The notes under the pieces are model-generated. The model had not been told where the DNA came from. It saw nothing but the letters and a program-made list of their open reading frames with translations, and did no database searches. A DNA stretch of 64,000 nucleotides from Halorubrum sp. CBA1229 (GTDB lineage Archaea > Halobacteriota > Halobacteria > Halobacteriales > Haloferacaceae), in contig NZ_CP054585.1 of NCBI RefSeq assembly GCF_003721435.2, positions 434,001 to 498,000 of the forward strand, written 5' to 3'. Of the stretch, positions 46,253 through 56,615 are shown piece after piece. A program made the translations under genes and the position numbers. How positions within the stretch are numbered: position 1 is the stretch's first letter; every line of letters starts with the position of its first letter.

Positions 46253-47020
46253 TCAGGCGTCCGGCCGCGGTCGGATCAGGTTCGCGAGGGCGACGAGCGC
46301 ACCGAGGAACCACCCGAGCGGGACGGAGATACCGACCCACATCAGCACGTAGCCGAGGCCGGCGACGCCCCACTGCTCGCCGAACGTCTCCAGGTCGAAG
46401 GCGCTGCGGAGGGTCTCGTTGATCCCGCCGACGCCGAGGATCGTATCGAGGATCCAAACCGCGAGCTGGTAGCTCGGGTCGAGCACCAAACTCGAGATGG
46501 AGGGCGTGAGCAGCCCGGCGACGACCGGCGGGAGGAAGATCGCGGTCATCGCGAACGGGTACGCTAAGAGCACGCTGACGAACCGCCCGCCGGTCTTCGA
46601 GAACCCGGCGGCCGCGCCCGCGGAGACGACCGCAACGACGCTGGCGCCGCCGATTCCGAGCATCACCTCGGTCGGCAGTTGGAAGTGCGCGAGCAGGGTG
46701 AGCGAGCCCCAGACGAGCGTCGCGACGACGACGGCGCCGAGCACGCCGAAGCGAGCGACCGCGGAGTCGAGCTTCGCGGCGTAGTACCGCGTGGCGAACC
46801 CGACGAGCAGGAGCGGGTACGCGACCGCGACGAGCGGGGCGCCGAGTATCGCCCAGAGGTAGTACCCGACGGTCTGGACGGAGGTCTCCGGTTTCCACTT
46901 CCCCAGCACCGCGCTCGGATCGAGCTGTCTGGGGAAGACGACCTCCATCCACGTCTCGTGGAGTCGGACGACGTCAAGGAGGAGCGCTTCCACCAGACTG
47001 GTTTGTCCTCGGCGTTCCAT
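46253..47020 (-). CDS. Polytopic membrane protein, Yip1-like
   Basis: The protein has 255 residues with about six hydrophobic helices. ATG at 47020 is chosen because a GAGGTGAGCC ribosome-binding stretch sits just before it and the upstream frame is not coding-like. The layout resembles Yip1-domain membrane proteins, but I have no strong motif to confirm this. An alternative is a generic haloarchaeal membrane protein of unknown function. It is transcribed toward the HNH-like gene. Confidence 0.6.
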   Translation of the reverse strand: MERRGQTSLVEALLLDVVRLHETWMEVVFPRQLDPSAVLGKWKPETSVQTVGYYLWAILGAPLVAVAYPLLLVGFATRYYAAKLDSAVARFGVLGAVVVATLVWGSLTLLAHFQLPTEVMLGIGGASVVAVVSAGAAAGFSKTGGRFVSVLLAYPFAMTAIFLPPVVAGLLTPSISSLVLDPSYQLAVWILDTILGVGGINETLRSAFDLETFGEQWGVAGLGYVLMWVGISVPLGWFLGALVALANLIRPRPDA

Positions 47021-47151
47021 TTGGCTCACCTCGCGCACGCCACACCGTGAACTTTGTGCCTTCGTTCGGGCGTCTGTCAGTACGCCCCGATTATCAGACG
47101 GTACGCCCTGCGCCGATACGCTTAACCGTTTCAGCGGGCCTATCATCGCTC

Positions 47152-47820
47152 ATGCATAGACGTGGACTGCTCGCGGCGGTCGCCGCATCGACGTCCGTCG
47201 CCCTCGCCGGGTGTGCCGCCGGCGAAGACGGGAGCTACGAGTACGACGCGAGTCCGGCACAGATCCCGTCGGAGGCGGCCTCAGAGGCCGGGTATACGGG
47301 CGAGGAGCCGGAGTCGTTCACCATCGAGCAGGAGTTCGACGTGGCGGGCGTGAACGCCCAGGTGTCGGCGACCACGTGGGTGGCGGGGTACGAGAACCAG
47401 AACAACGGCTCCGCGCTGTTCGTGGCGAGCACCCCGAACGCGTCGGTGGGCGGGCAGTCGGTCAACCCGCTGGTTCGCGCCGACGACGCGGAACTGATCC
47501 GCCGGCTGTTAGAGCAGGTCGAGCAGCGCGGGATCGGCGGCGAGGGAACCGACATCGAGGCCGAGGACATCGAGAACCGCGGGTCGGAGACGCGGACCAT
47601 CCTCGGCGAGGAGGTGGAGGTGTCGATCCTCGAAACCACGGTTGACGCGGAGGTCGGCGCCGGCGGCAATCAGAGCGGCAGCGTCGAGGACGTCCCGGTG
47701 TTCATCTACATCGCGACCGTTCAGCACGACGACGACGTGGTCGCGCTCATCGGCGTCCACCCAACCGCGGTCGACGCCCGCGACTCGGTTCTCTCCTTGA
47801 TGGAACAGGCCGAGCACTGA
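47152..47820 (+). CDS. Tat-type lipoprotein (DUF6517-like)
   Basis: The protein has 222 residues. The leader MHRRGLLAAVAAS has a twin arginine, and the lipobox VALAGC places the lipid-bearing cysteine at residue 21. The mature part is acidic and beta-rich, and contains EFDVAGVNAQVSATTWVAGYEN and the LEQVEQRG helix. Haloarchaeal proteins of this layout are annotated as DUF6517, from memory. The function is unknown. The protein is probably outside the membrane. Confidence 0.7.
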   Translation: MHRRGLLAAVAASTSVALAGCAAGEDGSYEYDASPAQIPSEAASEAGYTGEEPESFTIEQEFDVAGVNAQVSATTWVAGYENQNNGSALFVASTPNASVGGQSVNPLVRADDAELIRRLLEQVEQRGIGGEGTDIEAEDIENRGSETRTILGEEVEVSILETTVDAEVGAGGNQSGSVEDVPVFIYIATVQHDDDVVALIGVHPTAVDARDSVLSLMEQAEH

Positions 47821-48075: not shown

Positions 48076-51000
48076 ATGGATCGAAAAAACTCAACCTACG
48101 AACCGGTGGTCATCTTCGTCATTTGTATGGTTGTTATTTCAGGTGTCGCGATGGAAATAACTCTGGTGTCGGCAGAAACGGACAAGGACCGATCTCTCAA
48201 TATATCTAATTCAGGAGATGCTGGGAATTTATTCTCATTCGAGAACACGCATAGTATCTCAAATATAGAAATAAACGTAGACAATAAATCAGCCAGTGAA
48301 TATATGACACTATATATAAACTTTGTAGAATTGCAAAATTCTGGCATAAATGTGTCTGATGTTGGTGTTAAAGGATCAACAGTCTCAAACGCAGAAGTTA
48401 TTGAAGTAAACAGACAGAAATCTGACGGAGAAAGAATACTTGCGATACAAATTAAGCGTCAAAATACCAGCAATCCGGTTCAGATCAAATCTGTAAAATT
48501 CGACAAGATCAACGGATCAAGGGGACAAAAATCAAACAATATCCAATACAGAGTTGGTGTGATAGATAACAACTCAACGGACAGTTATAGTGAGTTAAAA
48601 GCGAAAGGAAATATAAGAAAATCGACAGTATTTGATTTTATTGACGGTTCTATCAAAGTGAAAGATCAGGCAACAGTTTCTACAAATTTTATGAGAAGTA
48701 GTAGGACGTCATCAGGAGTGACTATTAGCGGGCTTAGTTCAAATGATAATGCAACAGTTGTACTTACTGACAAAGAATATGGCGAGATTGTCGGATATAA
48801 ATCGCAAACAGTACAAGAAATGAGTATGAATGATAGTATTTCACTCAACACCTCAAATCTTGGTGGGAAATATAGAGTATATCTTATACCGACTGGAAAA
48901 ATTAGCATAAATGAAGATGATATCGGTACAGAGCTATCAGATAGATCAAGAAGCTCCGCGGTTGACAAAGATAGATTTCATGTGTACCTAGGTACGGTAG
49001 AGTTCAAAAACGAAGAATACACGGCGAGAGGAGCTACCAACATCTCCATAGCAAGGTCTGAGGTACGAGACACGGTCGGTATGAATACTCCATATATTAT
49101 TTCTATACATCCATTAACTGCTGATAATAAGGTTGCTTACGATGAATATATTGGTTACTCAGATGTATTAGTTGGTGTAAATGATGAATTAGCAGTACCC
49201 ATTAGAGATGCTAGAGGTAATGAGAATAGGGTCTGGCACAGTAACCGGTTTGTGGCAATAATAAGACTTGCTCAGGGACAAAAACCGGGCGAGCCTGTTG
49301 ATTTGAATACTACAGAGCCGTTGCCAAATTCAGATATAAAACATCAATTTGTAGATGGAGGTGTATCCGACAGTGCAAATATACATATTAACAATATTCC
49401 CACAGAGCAAAACAGCAGCAGGGTAGATCGCCGATTTAATCATACGGGCTATAGCGGGGAGCAATTATATTCCGGAGAAGTAGTTGTATTCGAGAATAAT
49501 ACGTCAACAACAAGGATTGTTAAATTACAAAGAAATATTTCAGATAATAAGTCAGTAATAGCCGGTATCGGTAGCCATCTGAATGACACCAACGGTGTGG
49601 TTTTTAATACGACAGGATTGAAAACAGGTATTTATTCGCTCTCTGGCGGTGGATTTGCAAGCAAAAATCAATTTAAGTTATTCGGGAGGACCGATCAGGA
49701 GGTGAAATTCAAGAACGCTATACAAAAAACAAAAATTGGATCACGGGCCCACTATAGACTATATCATAACACTTCAGAGGTGAGTCTGAAAATTTCAGAT
49801 TCAGATACAAATAGAACAATCGCAACTGCTAACCTCTCTACACCGGCTCCCGGACGCACATCGATTGGGGTGAATACGTATGCCCTCGGCAACGAATCGC
49901 TGACAGATAGGTTTGTCACCGCGGGGCCGGGCGCGACCGTGGAATCGGTCGACACGTCGATATCGAACAGGACGCTTCCTCCGGGAACGTACCGGATCGC
50001 CGTCCGCTCCGAACAGGGACTCGCCTCAACAGCCGACGAGGCCACTGTCACGATCGGGAGCCGTTCGACGAACGGTGTGACCGCCTACGCGACGACCGCC
50101 CTCGACCGAGGCGACCTCGGGACGGCCGACGCGGTGCGACGGGCGATCGCGAACGGAACGCTCTCGCCGACGTCGACCGTCGCCTCGAACGAGACCGTCG
50201 TGTACGCCGCGAACGCCACGGGATTGACCGGGCTGCCGGCCGCGCAGAACGCGACCCCCGAGACGGGCGCCGACCTGAGTCAGCTCGGCGGGCTCGCCTT
50301 TGGCGTGCGGTCGAACGCGTCGGCGACGGATGACGACGGGACCGACGCAGACGGGCCGGTCCCGCCGAACTCGTCCGTCCACGTTGACAGCACGGGGCTC
50401 TACCTCGTCGCCGAGGGCGCCGACGCGCTCGCGACCGATGAGACGCCCGCCGACGGAGAGACGTTTACTGCCGAGTTCCGCGTAGAGGACGAGCGCCTGC
50501 GCGAGGCCGCGTCGGACGCGACGGACGACCACGCCGTGTCGACGACGGTGACTTTCGAGGCGCTCCCGACGAGCGAGGGGGACGAAGATACTGCAAGCGA
50601 CGATCCGATTGGAGGCGGCAGCGGCGGTGATGACGGTAATGGCAGTAACGGTAGTGGTAGTAGTGGCGGTAGTGGTAGTAGTGGCGGTAATGGCAGTAAC
50701 GGTAGTGGTAGTAGTGGCGGTGGTGGCAGTGACGGTAGTGGTAGTAGTGGCGGTGGTGGCAGTAACGGTAGTGGTAGTACTGGTGGCGGTGGTAGCGGGG
50801 GAGCTGGCGGTGGTGGAGGAGCGTCCGGCGGCGGTACCGGCGCGGGCGGCGGTGCGACCGCCGGCGGAAGCGGACCGGCGGAGGCGACGCCGGGGGCGGG
50901 AGCCGCGCCGAGCGGCTCAGAGGCGGAGAAACCGAACAGGAAAAACGGGGACCGGTCCGTGATCGGTCCCGGACGGAACGAGGACCGGTTCGGGATCCGC

Positions 51001-51417
51001 CCGGTGGCCGACGTCCGACCGGTCGCAGGCGGCGATTCGATCGCGTCGCCCGCGTCCGTCTCGCCGACGGTGGCCTCCGCCAACGCGGGTGCCAGTCCGA
51101 CCGAGGGCGACGCCCCCTCGTCCAAGCCGGGCGCGGATCGCGGCGACGCCGGATCGGACCGCGCGGGCGGCGACAACAGCGGGGCAGAGGCGACCGAGGT
51201 GGCGGGAGCGAACGGGGCGGACGCCGAGTCAGACGTGCGGGACGGTCCGGCAGCGAAGTCGGAGTCACCGGACGGCGAGCCGGAAACGCCGAGCTACGAC
51301 GACGCGCCGATCCGGACGACCGCCGACGACGTGCCCGGGTTCGGCCCGCTCGTCACGCTAGTCGCGCTCCTGCTCACCGGGAGACTCGCCGCGCGACGGC
51401 GGAGTCGGGGCCCGTGA
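48076..51417 (+). CDS. Large PGF-CTERM surface glycoprotein with mosaic composition
   Basis: The protein has 1113 residues. An N-terminal hydrophobic signal (about residues 11-32) is followed by about 560 residues encoded by AT-rich DNA with many N-x-S/T sequons (about thirty in the whole protein). From about residue 590 (base 49850) the DNA is GC-rich and the protein turns acidic, with a domain resembling other haloarchaeal surface proteins (TSTNGVTAYATTALD, DSTGLYLVAEGADALA). A glycine/serine/asparagine tract (about residues 850-925) and an acidic linker precede PGFGPL and a basic end. This is an archaeosortase A signal near residue 1087. The protein is probably anchored in the cell wall. 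The N-terminal function is unknown. Confidence 0.8.
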   Translation: MDRKNSTYEPVVIFVICMVVISGVAMEITLVSAETDKDRSLNISNSGDAGNLFSFENTHSISNIEINVDNKSASEYMTLYINFVELQNSGINVSDVGVKGSTVSNAEVIEVNRQKSDGERILAIQIKRQNTSNPVQIKSVKFDKINGSRGQKSNNIQYRVGVIDNNSTDSYSELKAKGNIRKSTVFDFIDGSIKVKDQATVSTNFMRSSRTSSGVTISGLSSNDNATVVLTDKEYGEIVGYKSQTVQEMSMNDSISLNTSNLGGKYRVYLIPTGKISINEDDIGTELSDRSRSSAVDKDRFHVYLGTVEFKNEEYTARGATNISIARSEVRDTVGMNTPYIISIHPLTADNKVAYDEYIGYSDVLVGVNDELAVPIRDARGNENRVWHSNRFVAIIRLAQGQKPGEPVDLNTTEPLPNSDIKHQFVDGGVSDSANIHINNIPTEQNSSRVDRRFNHTGYSGEQLYSGEVVVFENNTSTTRIVKLQRNISDNKSVIAGIGSHLNDTNGVVFNTTGLKTGIYSLSGGGFASKNQFKLFGRTDQEVKFKNAIQKTKIGSRAHYRLYHNTSEVSLKISDSDTNRTIATANLSTPAPGRTSIGVNTYALGNESLTDRFVTAGPGATVESVDTSISNRTLPPGTYRIAVRSEQGLASTADEATVTIGSRSTNGVTAYATTALDRGDLGTADAVRRAIANGTLSPTSTVASNETVVYAANATGLTGLPAAQNATPETGADLSQLGGLAFGVRSNASATDDDGTDADGPVPPNSSVHVDSTGLYLVAEGADALATDETPADGETFTAEFRVEDERLREAASDATDDHAVSTTVTFEALPTSEGDEDTASDDPIGGGSGGDDGNGSNGSGSSGGSGSSGGNGSNGSGSSGGGGSDGSGSSGGGGSNGSGSTGGGGSGGAGGGGGASGGGTGAGGGATAGGSGPAEATPGAGAAPSGSEAEKPNRKNGDRSVIGPGRNEDRFGIRPVADVRPVAGGDSIASPASVSPTVASANAGASPTEGDAPSSKPGADRGDAGSDRAGGDNSGAEATEVAGANGADAESDVRDGPAAKSESPDGEPETPSYDDAPIRTTADDVPGFGPLVTLVALLLTGRLAARRRSRGP
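50613..50850 (+). repeat. Gly/Ser/Asn-coding low-complexity tract
   Basis: Inside the surface-protein gene, triplets of GGC, GGT, AGT and AAC alternate (GGTAGTGGTAGTAGTGGCGG-type units of about 60 bases repeated with changes). They encode a flexible linker between the surface domain and the C-terminal anchor. Slippage could change its length. Confidence 0.8.
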
Positions 51418-51655: not shown

Positions 51656-51956
51656 CCGGCCCGTCTCACACCGGGCTCGTCTCGCTCGGCGACGAACTCC
51701 GGCTCGGTCAAAAACGGCGAACGTTCGACGATTAACAATACAGTATTATTTTCGGGATTCGGGCCCGTAACGGCACAGATTTGTTCGTTTGAGAGGCTCT
51801 AGTAGAACTAATCCGGCACATAACTGATCGGGCGTCGAGCGTGTCAACGGTTATGCACCCATGATGGATAATTACCTTATATTCCCTAATGTGTGTACGA
51901 GGGATCCTACCCGTATCAGGGTCATACCTTTAAGCGATCATCTGTGAGTGCGGGGC
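51656..51956 (+). promoter_or_regulatory. AT-rich upstream region of gltB
   Basis: 301 bases without a supported gene. AT-rich parts are at about 51732-51750 and 51866-51885 (TTACCTTATATTCCC). CCTTTAAGC near 51927-51935 stands about 25 bases before the gltB ATG at 51957 and may be the TATA region. A 29-codon frame (51861-51947) lies just before gltB and ends one base before a GTG codon; it may be a leader or chance. Confidence 0.45.
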
Positions 51957-54900
51957 ATGACCGAGCCACGTAGTAACACCCGGGGGGATTCGGAGTCCTC
52001 GGGCCGCGGTGGGGGGCTTGCGACGGTATCGGACGAGCGATCGAACTGCGGGATCGGCGGGATCGTCGACCTCGACGGGGACCCGAACCACGAGACAGTG
52101 ACCGATGCGGTCCGGCTGCTGGAGAACCTCGAGCACCGCGGCACCACGGGCGCCGAGGAGAACACCGGCGACGGGGCCGGCATCATGGTCGCGCGCCCGG
52201 ACGGCTTCTTCCGCGAGGTCGTCGACGCCGACCTCCCCGACGAGTACGCGGTCGGCTCCGTCTTCATGCCGACCGAGCAGAGCGTCCAGGCGGAGATCCA
52301 CGACGTCATCGCGGAGGTGTTCTCCGTCTACGGGCTGGAGGTGCTCGCGTGGCGCTCCGTCCCGACCGATAACGCCGACCTCGGCGCGACCGCGCTCGAC
52401 TCGGAGCCGGAGGTCGCCCAGCTGTTCGCCGCGCCCGTCGAGGGTGCCGGTCTCGCAGAGCGGTTCACCAGCGAGGAGACCCGCCCGGACGACGTCGACC
52501 CGGAGCTGCTCGGGTTCGACCGCGCGCTGTATGCCGCCCGACGCGAGATCGAGAACGCGGTCGCCGACGTCGACGGGGCCGGGCGGTTCTACGTCTGCTC
52601 GCTCGACCGCCAGCGCGTCGTCTACAAGGGCCTGCTGAAGGGCTCGCAGCTCGCCGACTACTACCCGGACCTGACCGACGAGCGCTTCGCGAGCCACGTC
52701 GCCTTGGTCCACGCGCGGTTCTCGACGAACACGCTCGGCGCGTGGCACCTCGCGCACCCGTACCGCAACATCGTCCACAACGGCGAGTTCAACACGATCC
52801 GCGGGAACGTCAACTGGATGCGCGCCCGCGAGAACGACCTCGACCATCCGGCGTTCGGCGCCGAGCTCGACACGATCAAGCCGGTGATCGACGACCCGAA
52901 CCAGTCGGACACCGCGAGCGTCGACAACGCGGTCGAACTGCTCCTCCAGGCCGGCCGCGACCTCCCGCACACGCTCCGGATGCTGATCCCGGAGGCGTTC
53001 CGCGACGACGACCTGATGGACGCGGCCCGCACCGACTTCTACGACTACCACGCCTCGCTCGTCGAGCCGTGGGACGGCCCCGCCCTCGTCATCGGCTTCG
53101 ACGGCGACCGCGTCGCCGGCGTCCTCGACCGCAACGGGCTCCGCCCGTGCCGGTACGAGGTGACCGAGGAGAACCGGCTGATCGTCGGGAGCGAGGTCGG
53201 CGCGCTGCCGACCGACCCCGCCGACGTACAGCGCCGCGGGCGGCTCCAGCCCGGCGAGATATTCGTCGCCGACCCCGAGGAGGGGCGGATCGTCCCGGAC
53301 GACGAGGTGTTCGCCGAGCTCACCGACGAGAAGTACGGCGAGTGGGTCGACGAGCGCCAGGTGGACCTCGACGAGGTCGTCGTCGAGGTCGACGAGGAAA
53401 GCGGATCTGAGAGCCCGGCCGAGGCCGACGACGAGGGCGACGAGGCCCCGACGGTCCGTGCCCACCAGGCCGCGTTCGGCTACACGACCGACTCGCTGAA
53501 CCACCTCGTCGAGCCGATGGCGAAAGACGGGAAGGACCCGGTCGGCTCGATGGGCGACGACACGCCGCTGTCGGTCCTCTCCGACGTCGACCGCCCGCTG
53601 TTCACCTACTTCAAGCAGCTGTTCGCGCAGGTGTCGAACCCGCCGATCGACTACATCCGCGAGGAGCTCGTCACCTCGCTGGAGACCCGGATCGGGAACC
53701 AGCGGAACCTGCTCGACGAGACTCCCGAGCACGCCGAGCAGATCGTCTCCGACTCCCCCATCCTCACCGACGCCGAGACGGCGGCGCTGAAGGCGCTGGA
53801 CAGCGGCCCCGTCGACGGCGACGGCCCCGCCTTCGACTCGGTGACCGTCGATATCACGTACGACCGCGAGGCGTCGCTCGTCGACGCCGTCACGCGGATC
53901 CGCAACGAGTCCGCGGCCGCGATCAGGGACGGCGCCGACGTGGTCGTCCTCTCCGACCGCGCGGTCGGCCCGGACCGGCTCGCGGTCCCGAGCCTGCTCG
54001 CGACCGGCGCGGTCCACCACCACCTCGTCCGGAACGGGCTGCGGAACCGCGCCGGAATCGTCGTCGAATCGGGCGAACCGCACGAAGTACACCACATCGC
54101 GACGCTCGTCGGCTACGGCGCCGACGCGATCGACCCGTACCTGGCGTACGAGTCTATCGCCGACGTCGTCGCCGGGCCCGACGGCGCCGACGAATCGGAG
54201 GCGCTCGCGGCGTACCGCGGCGCGCTGGAGGACGGCCTCCTCAAGACGATGGCGAAGATGGGCATCTCGACGATGGAGTCGTACCAGGGCGCCCAGATCT
54301 TCGAGGCGGTCGGGCTCGCCTCCGAGTTCGTCGCCGAGTACTTCGAGGGGACCGAGATCCGCACCGAGGGGATTGGGATCGAGGAGATCGAGGACGACCT
54401 CCGGACGCGCCACGCGATGGCGTTCGGCGCCGACCCCGAGCTGGAGACCACGGGCGAGTACGAGCACCGCTCGTCGGGGATCAAACACGGCTGGAACCCG
54501 CAGACGGTCGGGACGCTCCAGCAGGCGGTCCGCGGCGGCGACTACGAGCAGTACCGGGAGTTCGCCGAGCTGGTGAACGACCAGTCCGAGGAGCTCCAGA
54601 CGCTCCGCGGGCTCCTCGAGTTCGAGTCCGACCGCGATCCGGTGCCGGTCGAGGAGGTCGAGCCGGTCGAGTCGATCGTCGAGCGCTTCTCGACGGCCGC
54701 GATGAGCCTCGGGAGCATCTCGCCGGAGGCCCACGAGAACAACGCGATCGCGATGAACCGGATCGGCGCGAAGTCGAACACCGGCGAGGGCGGCGAGCCG
54801 CCGGAGCGGTTCGGCACCGAGAAGGAGTGCTCGGTCAAGCAGGTCGCCTCCGGCCGGTTCGGCGTCACCGCCGACTACCTCGCGAGCGCGGACGAGCTGC

Positions 54901-56615
54901 AGATCAAGATGGCGCAGGGGTCGAAGCCCGGCGAGGGCGGTCACCTCCCCGGCGAGAAGGTGAACGAGATGATCGCGCACGTCCGGTGTTCCACGCCGGG
55001 CGTCGGGCTCATCTCGCCGCCGCCGCAACACGACATCTACTCGATCGAGGACCTCAAGCAGCTCATCTTCGATTTAAAGGCCGCGAGCCCGGACGCCGAC
55101 GTCAACGTGAAGCTGGTGTCCGAGGCCGGCATCGGCACCATCGCGGCCGGCGTCGCGAAGGCGAACGCGGACGTCGTCCACGTCTCCGGCCACTCCGGCG
55201 GAACGGGGGCGTCCCCGAAGACGTCGATCAAGAACGCGGGGCTTCCGTGGGAGCTCGGACTGGCCGAGGCGAACCAGATGCTCCGCGCGACCGGCCTGCG
55301 CGACCGCATCCGCGTGACGGCCGACGGCGGGCTCAAGACCGGCCGCGACGTCGCGGTCGCGGCCGCGCTGGGCGCGGAGGAGTACGTGTTCGGCACCGCG
55401 TCGCTCGTCACCTCGGGCTGCGTGATGGCCCGGCAGTGCCACGAGAACACCTGCCCGGTCGGCGTCGCGACCCAGCGGGAGGACCTCCGCCAGCGCTTCC
55501 CCGGGCAGCCGGACCACGTCATCAACTACATGACGTTCATCGCCCAGGAGCTCCGCGAGCTCATGGCCGAGCTGGGGTACACCGAGGTCGAGGAGTTCAT
55601 CGGGCGCCCCGAGCTGCTCACCCAGCGCGAGACGGACCACGAGAAGGCGAAGCACCTCGACCTCTCGGCGGTGATCGCCGAGCCCGCGGGCGACGCCCGG
55701 ACGAAGACCCGCGAGCAGGAGGACGCCGACATCGAGGCCCTGCTCGACTGGGACCTCATCGACGAGGCGGCCCCGGCCATCGAGGACGGCGCGCCCGTCG
55801 CGCTCACCCGCGACGTGGAGAACGTCGACCGCGCGGTCGGCGCGACCCTCTCGAACCGCGTCGTCTCCGAGCACGGCGGCGAGGGGCTCCCGGACGACAC
55901 CGTCACCTGTCGGTTCGACGGCTACGCCGGCCAGAGCTTCGGCGCGTTCCTCGCGCCCGGCGTCACCCTCGAGCTGACCGGCGCCGCCAACGACTACCTC
56001 GGGAAGGGGCTCTCCGGCGGCCGGATCGTGGTCAACACCCCCGACGAGGCGGGGTACGACCCCGCGGAGAACGTCGTCGCGGGCAACGTCGGGCTGTACG
56101 GCGCCACCGACGGCGAGGTGTACGTCAACGGCGTCGCCGGCGAGCGGTTCGGCGTCCGCAACTCCGGCGTGCGGGCGGTCGTCGAGGGCGTCGGCGACCA
56201 CGGCTGCGAGTACATGACCGGTGGGGTCGTCGCCGTGCTCGGCGACACCGGCCGGAACTTCGCGGCCGGGATGTCCGGGGGGGTCGCCTACGTGTACGAC
56301 CCGGACGACCGGTTCGACGAGCGCGTGAACCGCGGGATGGTATCGGTATCGGCGACGCTCGACGAGTCGGACGAGCGCATGCTGCGGCGGCTCGTCGAGA
56401 ACCACCGGGCGTACACCGGCAGCGACCGCGCGGCCGAACTGCTCGACGATTGGGCGGCGACGCTGGACGACTTCGTGCGCGTCTTCCCCGACGCGTACGC
56501 CGACGTCATCGCCGAGGGCAAGGGCGCCGACGTGCGCGACGAGCCGCCGGCGGCGGCCGAGACCGTCCCCGGCGCCGCGAGCGACCCGACCGGGCAGGCG
56601 TCGAGCGACGACTGA
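51957..56615 (+). CDS. gltB: Glutamate synthase large subunit
   Basis: The protein has 1552 residues. Cysteine 31 in SNCGIGGIVDLDGD is the likely N-terminal nucleophile after propeptide removal. ENTGDGAGIMVA is the class II glutaminase region. The FMN/synthase core contains AKSNTGEGGEPPERF and GGTGASPKTSIKNAGLPWELGL. The 3Fe-4S cluster motif CVMARQCHENTCPVG is near residues 1154-1168. The C-terminal third is the GXGXG-type beta-helix domain (GLSGGRIVV, GNVGLYGATDGEVYVNG). It joins glutamine and 2-oxoglutarate into two glutamates, probably with ferredoxin or NAD(P)H. No small subunit gene is adjacent. ATG at 51957 is preferred over the GTG at 51948. Confidence 0.95.
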   Translation: MTEPRSNTRGDSESSGRGGGLATVSDERSNCGIGGIVDLDGDPNHETVTDAVRLLENLEHRGTTGAEENTGDGAGIMVARPDGFFREVVDADLPDEYAVGSVFMPTEQSVQAEIHDVIAEVFSVYGLEVLAWRSVPTDNADLGATALDSEPEVAQLFAAPVEGAGLAERFTSEETRPDDVDPELLGFDRALYAARREIENAVADVDGAGRFYVCSLDRQRVVYKGLLKGSQLADYYPDLTDERFASHVALVHARFSTNTLGAWHLAHPYRNIVHNGEFNTIRGNVNWMRARENDLDHPAFGAELDTIKPVIDDPNQSDTASVDNAVELLLQAGRDLPHTLRMLIPEAFRDDDLMDAARTDFYDYHASLVEPWDGPALVIGFDGDRVAGVLDRNGLRPCRYEVTEENRLIVGSEVGALPTDPADVQRRGRLQPGEIFVADPEEGRIVPDDEVFAELTDEKYGEWVDERQVDLDEVVVEVDEESGSESPAEADDEGDEAPTVRAHQAAFGYTTDSLNHLVEPMAKDGKDPVGSMGDDTPLSVLSDVDRPLFTYFKQLFAQVSNPPIDYIREELVTSLETRIGNQRNLLDETPEHAEQIVSDSPILTDAETAALKALDSGPVDGDGPAFDSVTVDITYDREASLVDAVTRIRNESAAAIRDGADVVVLSDRAVGPDRLAVPSLLATGAVHHHLVRNGLRNRAGIVVESGEPHEVHHIATLVGYGADAIDPYLAYESIADVVAGPDGADESEALAAYRGALEDGLLKTMAKMGISTMESYQGAQIFEAVGLASEFVAEYFEGTEIRTEGIGIEEIEDDLRTRHAMAFGADPELETTGEYEHRSSGIKHGWNPQTVGTLQQAVRGGDYEQYREFAELVNDQSEELQTLRGLLEFESDRDPVPVEEVEPVESIVERFSTAAMSLGSISPEAHENNAIAMNRIGAKSNTGEGGEPPERFGTEKECSVKQVASGRFGVTADYLASADELQIKMAQGSKPGEGGHLPGEKVNEMIAHVRCSTPGVGLISPPPQHDIYSIEDLKQLIFDLKAASPDADVNVKLVSEAGIGTIAAGVAKANADVVHVSGHSGGTGASPKTSIKNAGLPWELGLAEANQMLRATGLRDRIRVTADGGLKTGRDVAVAAALGAEEYVFGTASLVTSGCVMARQCHENTCPVGVATQREDLRQRFPGQPDHVINYMTFIAQELRELMAELGYTEVEEFIGRPELLTQRETDHEKAKHLDLSAVIAEPAGDARTKTREQEDADIEALLDWDLIDEAAPAIEDGAPVALTRDVENVDRAVGATLSNRVVSEHGGEGLPDDTVTCRFDGYAGQSFGAFLAPGVTLELTGAANDYLGKGLSGGRIVVNTPDEAGYDPAENVVAGNVGLYGATDGEVYVNGVAGERFGVRNSGVRAVVEGVGDHGCEYMTGGVVAVLGDTGRNFAAGMSGGVAYVYDPDDRFDERVNRGMVSVSATLDESDERMLRRLVENHRAYTGSDRAAELLDDWAATLDDFVRVFPDAYADVIAEGKGADVRDEPPAAAETVPGAASDPTGQASSDD

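Follow-up and report, generated by a model that had tools for sequence, protein, structure and literature searches.

The gene at positions 48076 to 51417 of the Halorubrum sp. CBA1229 sequence begins in AT-rich DNA and ends in GC-rich DNA, and it thus raises the question of how the two halves of a single reading frame came to differ in base composition. The original prediction offered two answers, exchange of a domain or replacement of the exposed N-terminus by transferred AT-rich DNA. We have examined this gene in the 64,000-nt stretch in which it lies (hereafter, the window), and also in a survey of 52 Halorubrum genomes; these comprise one genome per species, and the counts of forms given below therefore refer to species representatives and not to populations.

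The compositional switch and the encoded protein

In 300-base windows, the GC content was observed to drop from 0.64-0.69 upstream of the gene to 0.33-0.41 at positions 48200-49850, and to return to 0.66-0.73 from 49850 onwards. A two-segment fit placed the switch at codon 589 (about nt 49843), following an AT-rich part of about 590 codons, and across this point GC rises from 0.38 to 0.71 and GC3 from 0.32 to 0.77. The log-likelihood gain for this frame was 177, and that for the second-best frame 21.8, among 350 ORFs of at least 400 codons taken from 464 kb of the same genome (the window and 20 evenly spaced 20-kb stretches). Among the pooled orthologues, AGA and AGG account for 47% of arginine codons in the AT-rich block and 6% downstream, ATA for 32% and 4% of isoleucine codons, and AAT for 68% and 6% of asparagine codons; TTA is likewise abundant in the block, together with the rare codons AGA and ATA. 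Also, the protein ends in a PGF-CTERM motif (TIGR04126, E 4.6e-07, 29.3 bits against a cut-off of 24.5, residues 1082-1109). By these measurements the switch within one frame, the rare AT-rich codons of the N-terminal half and the C-terminal anchor, each of which had been proposed from visual inspection of the sequence, were confirmed. The features of the gene and its neighbors are collected in Table 1.

Table 1. Features of the surface-protein gene and of its neighbors, in positions of the window
Feature	Position	Strand	Basis or remark
Conserved membrane-protein gene of the syntenic block, upstream	46253..47146	-	
Putative lipoprotein gene, upstream neighbor kept in most genomes	47152..47820	+	
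PGF-CTERM surface protein, type A allele of the two-form locus	48076..51417	+	1113 aa, one ORF
Putative signal-peptide segment, common to both forms	48076..48168	+	About codons 1-31; alignment, breakpoints, GC3
Exchangeable AT-rich block (type A)	48169..49818	+	Breakpoints, GC/GC3 step, two-class HMMs, AlphaFold, sequons
Transition, A/B alignment resumes	49819..49873	+	Breakpoints, GC3 (from 0.39 to 0.81 in some 30 codons), changepoint about 49843
Conserved GC-rich C-terminal domain, common to A and B	49852..50502	+	Alignment
Gly/Ser-rich linker of the surface protein	50600..50870	+	Translation, sequence
PGF-CTERM sorting motif	51319..51402	+	Profile match
gltB-like large ORF, conserved downstream neighbor marking the locus genus-wide	51948..56615	+	

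Two other AT-rich segments were noted in the CBA1229 genome. One, L212:9894-14500 (GC 0.39-0.48), lies beside an integrase-like gene and includes an ATPase-like gene; it is an ordinary-looking mobile island, unlike the surface gene. The other, L214:4983-6986, encodes a 667-aa pentapeptide-repeat-like protein at a GC of about 0.46.

An alignment of the surface proteins reveals a hydrophobic N-terminus, which is a putative signal peptide. The C-terminal domain has a mean column identity of 59% when both forms described below are aligned. Its match to the DUF7827 (BGTF-type) surface domain, PF25162, scored 21.2 bits on the C-terminal module, which is under the Pfam gathering score of 27, and 2 of 24 C-domain orthologues matched DUF7827 at E <= 0.01.

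The gene was found at one locus, upstream of a large ORF that we take to be gltB, in nearly all of the 52 genomes; the C domain was present in 46 of them, and the order in most is HNH protein, membrane protein, lipoprotein, surface gene, gltB. Divergent members were seen away from gltB in G041 (L081, where the block is somewhat less AT-rich, with a GC of 0.46) and on another contig than gltB in G049 (L057). In all 44 copies with an assembled N block, the GC switch recurs at one and the same position of the alignment, with GC of 0.35-0.50 in the N part and 0.64-0.76 in the C part. The AT-rich N-terminus is thus genus-wide, which is the observation that the original prediction had itself named as speaking against it, and recent replacement of the N-terminus by transferred AT-rich DNA was not borne out.

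Two forms of the N-terminal block

We observed that the N block exists in two forms: A, in 27 genomes including CBA1229, and B, in 21 (20 from class-specific HMMs, and G021 from further searches). HMMs for the 2 classes gave no cross matches at E 1e-3, no intermediates were found, and the forms were mutually exclusive among the typed genomes. Comparison of the A and B profiles returned a probability of 10% and an E of 0.0032 for approximately the first 200 residues, which only faintly suggests that the first domains share an ancestor.

Sister species of opposite form are 90-99% identical in DNA on both sides of the block and about 40% identical inside it. For G015 (A) and G046 (B), for example, identity is 90-99% upstream, 38% across codons 14-576, and 88-99% in the C half. 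The 5' allele breakpoint falls at codon 14-31 in the sister pairs; the 3' breakpoints in the other pairs tested lie at codons 568-581, with the GC changepoints of the same genes at codons 579-599. As these pairs demonstrate, the N block is swapped whole while the putative signal peptide, C half and flanks stay, and the signal-peptide segment tracks species clade rather than form. Exchange of a domain, the first of the two answers originally offered, is accordingly upheld. The expectation of a conserved C half joined to a variable N half holds for the C half, which is shared; the variation of the N half, however, consists of 2 genus-wide forms and not of recent transfers.

Which of the two forms a species carries is unrelated to its position in the species tree. 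The A/B label changes 13 times on a tree built from seven flanking genes, as compared with 13.8 +/- 1.7 for shuffled labels, and on adjacent C-domain trees 11 and 13 times, with 12.2 and 12.3 expected, that is, with no association. Within a form, species whose flanks are further apart also have more distant blocks (Spearman 0.67 and 0.70), and block and flank trees, the former made by a quick method and carrying long-branch warnings, share 12 of 16 splits for A and, in poorer agreement, 8 of 14 for B. Each form thus follows the species clades internally, from which it would follow that both arose before the main Halorubrum clades diverged and have persisted ever since. By the flank, block and C-domain trees, the allelic lineages are older than the species splits, as is characteristic of trans-species polymorphism. 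On the direct reading of these sequences, the polymorphism would be older than the main clades; alternatively, exchange may have been confined within clades.

The latter alternative leads to the proposal that A and B are exchanged repeatedly among living Halorubrum species, without long-lived polymorphism within any of them. Such exchange would distribute the forms randomly on the species tree, as observed, the flanks offer ready homology for it, and the limited agreement of the B block tree with the flanks is in its favor. Yet the A block of G015 has no recent donor among the sampled genomes, its nearest sampled A relative, G033, being about 80% identical, which is as distant as their C domains are; and blocks within a form mirror the main clades, which would restrict exchange to clades and make it hard to tell from inherited polymorphism. 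We consider this proposal rather unlikely. Both forms were not seen together in any species of this sample of one genome per species, and in the only two second assemblies found (L194 and L197), the block was identical to that of the counterpart; this counts against the reading as a balanced polymorphism that is given below.

Surface exposure and block-wise difference might also suggest programmed variation, with silent cassettes, an invertible segment or a diversity-generating retroelement rewriting the block. However, neither block has a second copy, and thus no silent donor of the kind used in antigenic variation, elsewhere in the CBA1229 genome; there are two classes only, with nothing between them, and each is under purifying selection (see below). 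We therefore assign this mechanism a very low probability.

Both blocks are predicted to be strings of Ig-like beta-sandwich domains (AlphaFold pLDDT 85 for type A and 83 for type B). The Foldseek matches of each were long proteins made of Ig strings, at query TM-scores of about 0.12-0.22, and for this reason we claim only an Ig-like architecture for A and B; searches of Pfam gave neither block a usable name. In composition, the block has an excess of Asn and Ile and little Ala, with about 19-22 N-X-S/T sequons (mean 19 in type A). The anchor motif, the sequons and the modeled Ig-like strings together suggest a displayed glycoprotein.

Several genomes carry altered versions of the gene. In G005 (L068), a 99% complete genome, no match to the A block, B block or C domain was found; the gene is absent upstream of gltB, which is the only member of the window's neighborhood that was detected. 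The gene thus looks dispensable. In the sister species G009 and G032 (L033 and L034), a type A block lacks the first about 140 residues by in-frame loss of the first domain, and in G051 (L036) in-frame stops or a frameshift break the gene within the block. A DDE transposase element interrupts the block of G014 (L059, reverse complement, about 460-1380, and the end of L055). IS-like end sequences are common to contig ends in G003, G014, G021 and G039, and in G003, G021 and G039 these ends fall within the block (contig-end records L055; L058 and L056; L145, L080 and L146). Contig ends fell inside the gene in 11 of the 52 assemblies, with 3.5 expected (P about 0.0003), for which insertion sequences, low coverage and mixed alleles are possible causes. 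Such repeated disruption is in keeping with a surface receptor that can at times be a liability; a preference of insertion sequences for AT-rich targets would account for it as well.

Base composition of the exchangeable block

The 2 forms do not differ from each other in composition. GC3 is 0.310 +/- 0.041 in block A and 0.313 +/- 0.045 in block B, and 0.817 in the C half. With species pooled, GC3 declines across codons 10-40, at the 5' breakpoint, from 0.66 to 0.28, and at the 3' breakpoint it climbs from 0.33 to 0.81 in a span of about 30 codons, so that at either end the compositional step lies where the alleles break. Distantly related homologues of the A and B domains, and also paralogues in Halorubrum, have GC3 values ordinary for their genomes (0.72-0.86 for homologous domains at other loci in GC-rich genomes). 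Hence, the AT-richness belongs to the locus and not to the fold. These homologues also bear on the suggestion that composition follows from the residues in which glycosylated Ig-like domains are rich (Asn, Ile, Lys, Ser, Thr); in its favor, the residue bias and sequons of the block might be cited. GC3, which is mostly synonymous, is itself 0.31, and homologous domains are encoded elsewhere at ordinary GC3; a composition forced by amino acids or fold was ruled out for the synonymous component, and as a general account we find it scarcely credible.

We used polarised synonymous changes to estimate the GC3 toward which each segment is evolving. The implied equilibrium was 0.22-0.38 for the block and 0.76-0.92 for the C domain of the same genes, by a method that simulation showed to be nearly unbiased at stationarity; simulated amelioration toward 0.85 would have given about 0.56-0.61. 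The block is therefore AT-rich at substitution equilibrium and is not ameliorating. In raw counts, synonymous changes in the block ran more often from AT to GC than the reverse; this was a candidate sign of amelioration, and was rejected as such when the same 2:1 excess arose at stationarity in simulation.

These observations bear directly on a recent horizontal transfer, by which the N half would have come from an AT-rich donor (a virus, or a Haloquadratum-like or nanohaloarchaeal genome) and would not yet have ameliorated. The sharp switch within one gene is what such an event would produce, and haloarchaea exchange DNA readily (PMC11078007). Against it are the occurrence of the switch in every assembled orthologue, the equal GC3 of two unrelated forms, the AT-rich present equilibrium and the outcome of order-wide searches, which yielded no full-length donor and only distant relatives with ordinary GC3 in GC-rich genomes. 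Since relatives of both domains have ordinary GC, an AT-rich donor is neither needed nor seen. On these grounds a single recent import was ruled out, and recent transfer in general is highly improbable.

In most pairs, the dS of the block is 2-5 times that of the C domain, and dN/dS of the block within a form is 0.14-0.24, indicating purifying selection. The protein is conserved within each form and its synonymous sites are freer; selection thus appears to act between the two forms and not by constant change of residues. The same values argue against direct selection for AT-rich DNA or codons, as through slower translation, lower expression, exclusion of chromatin proteins or more recombination. 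That the AT-richness is locus-specific and sharply bounded, with abundant AGA, ATA and TTA codons, agrees with such selection; but a raised dS is the opposite of strong synonymous constraint, and two unrelated sequences share one GC3 near the mutational expectation (PMC9997560). We regard direct selection of this kind as improbable.

A possible balanced polymorphism and its implications

The explanation that we favor, and that we consider probable with some reserve, is that the block is an ancient, balanced two-allele surface domain, probably concerned with recognition by viruses or partner cells, which has escaped a force, probably linked to recombination, that maintains GC elsewhere. According to this explanation, a lipid-anchored, glycosylated protein would expose a chain of Ig-like domains in form A or form B at one chromosomal locus, and the two forms would be maintained by balancing (negative frequency-dependent) selection, most likely because viruses or other cells recognise this domain. 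Phage or immune-type selection on the protein may be involved, and a balanced two-form recognition, by viruses or by fusing cells, is what we infer from the sequences to explain the persistence of both forms. Switching between A and B would need only homologous recombination in the shared flanks. Inside the block, A and B would be unable to recombine with each other, and any GC bias tied to recombination, whether through GC-biased gene conversion or through selection that recombination renders efficient, would be weaker there. Largely free of that force, the block would have settled near its mutational equilibrium.

The equilibrium GC in mutation accumulation in Halobacterium salinarum is about 20% (PMC9997560), and thus something other than mutation keeps haloarchaeal genomes GC-rich. 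In a toy model of the escape, GC bias proportional to class frequency squared, as might apply to a smaller class with fewer partners, gave GC3 of 0.33-0.36 at 50% frequency, and bias proportional to frequency alone gave 0.50-0.55; the observed 0.31 would be nearer to the former, with a mutation parameter borrowed from another genus. Several observations count against the escape model: the ratio of dS in the block to dS in the C domain exceeds that from a back-of-envelope version of it, in Haloferax volcanii the direction of gene conversion is independent of gene GC (PMC8223754), and the homeocassettes described below mostly have normal G+C. Only tentatively do we propose the more specific version, in which a recombination-isolated allele pair lies at mutational equilibrium, GC-richness is kept by recombination-linked GC bias, and the two forms serve in archaeal recognition, as virus receptors or as types of cell-fusion partner, and are kept throughout the genus.

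Fungal mating-type idiomorphs, heterokaryon-incompatibility alleles and the dimorphism of Plasmodium MSP each consist of two dissimilar sequences long kept at one locus. A and B resemble these systems in forming a long-kept dissimilar pair with a narrow footprint, but the latter are eukaryotic. Literature searches found no report of this surface-gene locus. Close archaeal counterparts are the homeoalleles and homeocassettes of Halorubrum ezzemoulense (PMC11078007). In that species, divergent variants that exclude one another occupy a single locus between conserved flanks; they can be swapped by flanking recombination and were proposed to diversify viral receptors. A and B, too, are divergent variants in the same position that exclude each other. 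Homeocassettes differ in being whole-gene cassettes of one species, mostly with normal G+C (65-70%; PMC11078007 Table 1, from which the present locus is absent), whereas A and B are two genus-wide forms of an intragenic domain with AT-richness confined to the block. Heterology alone, then, need not cause AT-richness, and the age of the polymorphism may explain the difference.

The VARTIG modules of Thermococcales (PMC8416519), for which roles in self/non-self discrimination or conflict were proposed, likewise encode a large surface protein built of Ig domains, with a variable part that is exchanged. There, however, a C-terminal Ig domain is hypervariable rather than two-form and the downstream genes vary; in the present gene it is the N-terminal part that varies, and the C domain and the neighbors are conserved, with gltB next in most genomes. 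Similarly, two divergent S-layer glycoproteins exist in Haloferax, with virus sensitivity and mating as proposed consequences (PMC5867893), but these are whole proteins that follow rpoB1 clades, while in the present case only a domain differs and its form ignores the species tree.

If our explanation is right, Halorubrum maintains a genus-wide, two-form surface polymorphism that is older than its main clades and resides at a single syntenic locus, which could be typed by PCR in any Halorubrum collection. The locus would also offer a clean within-gene contrast for the open question of why haloarchaeal genomes are about 68% GC while mutation pushes toward about 20%. Segments with GC3 of 0.31 and 0.82 occupy one transcript and are divided exactly where recombination between forms becomes possible; if the explanation is true, expression, strand, chromosomal position and mRNA are all controlled for when the block is compared with the C half. 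The locus would also caution against taking every AT-rich stretch of a GC-rich archaeal genome for foreign DNA. In the aggregate, our observations suggest very old balancing selection on a swappable domain, and with it a natural test of what keeps these genomes GC-rich.
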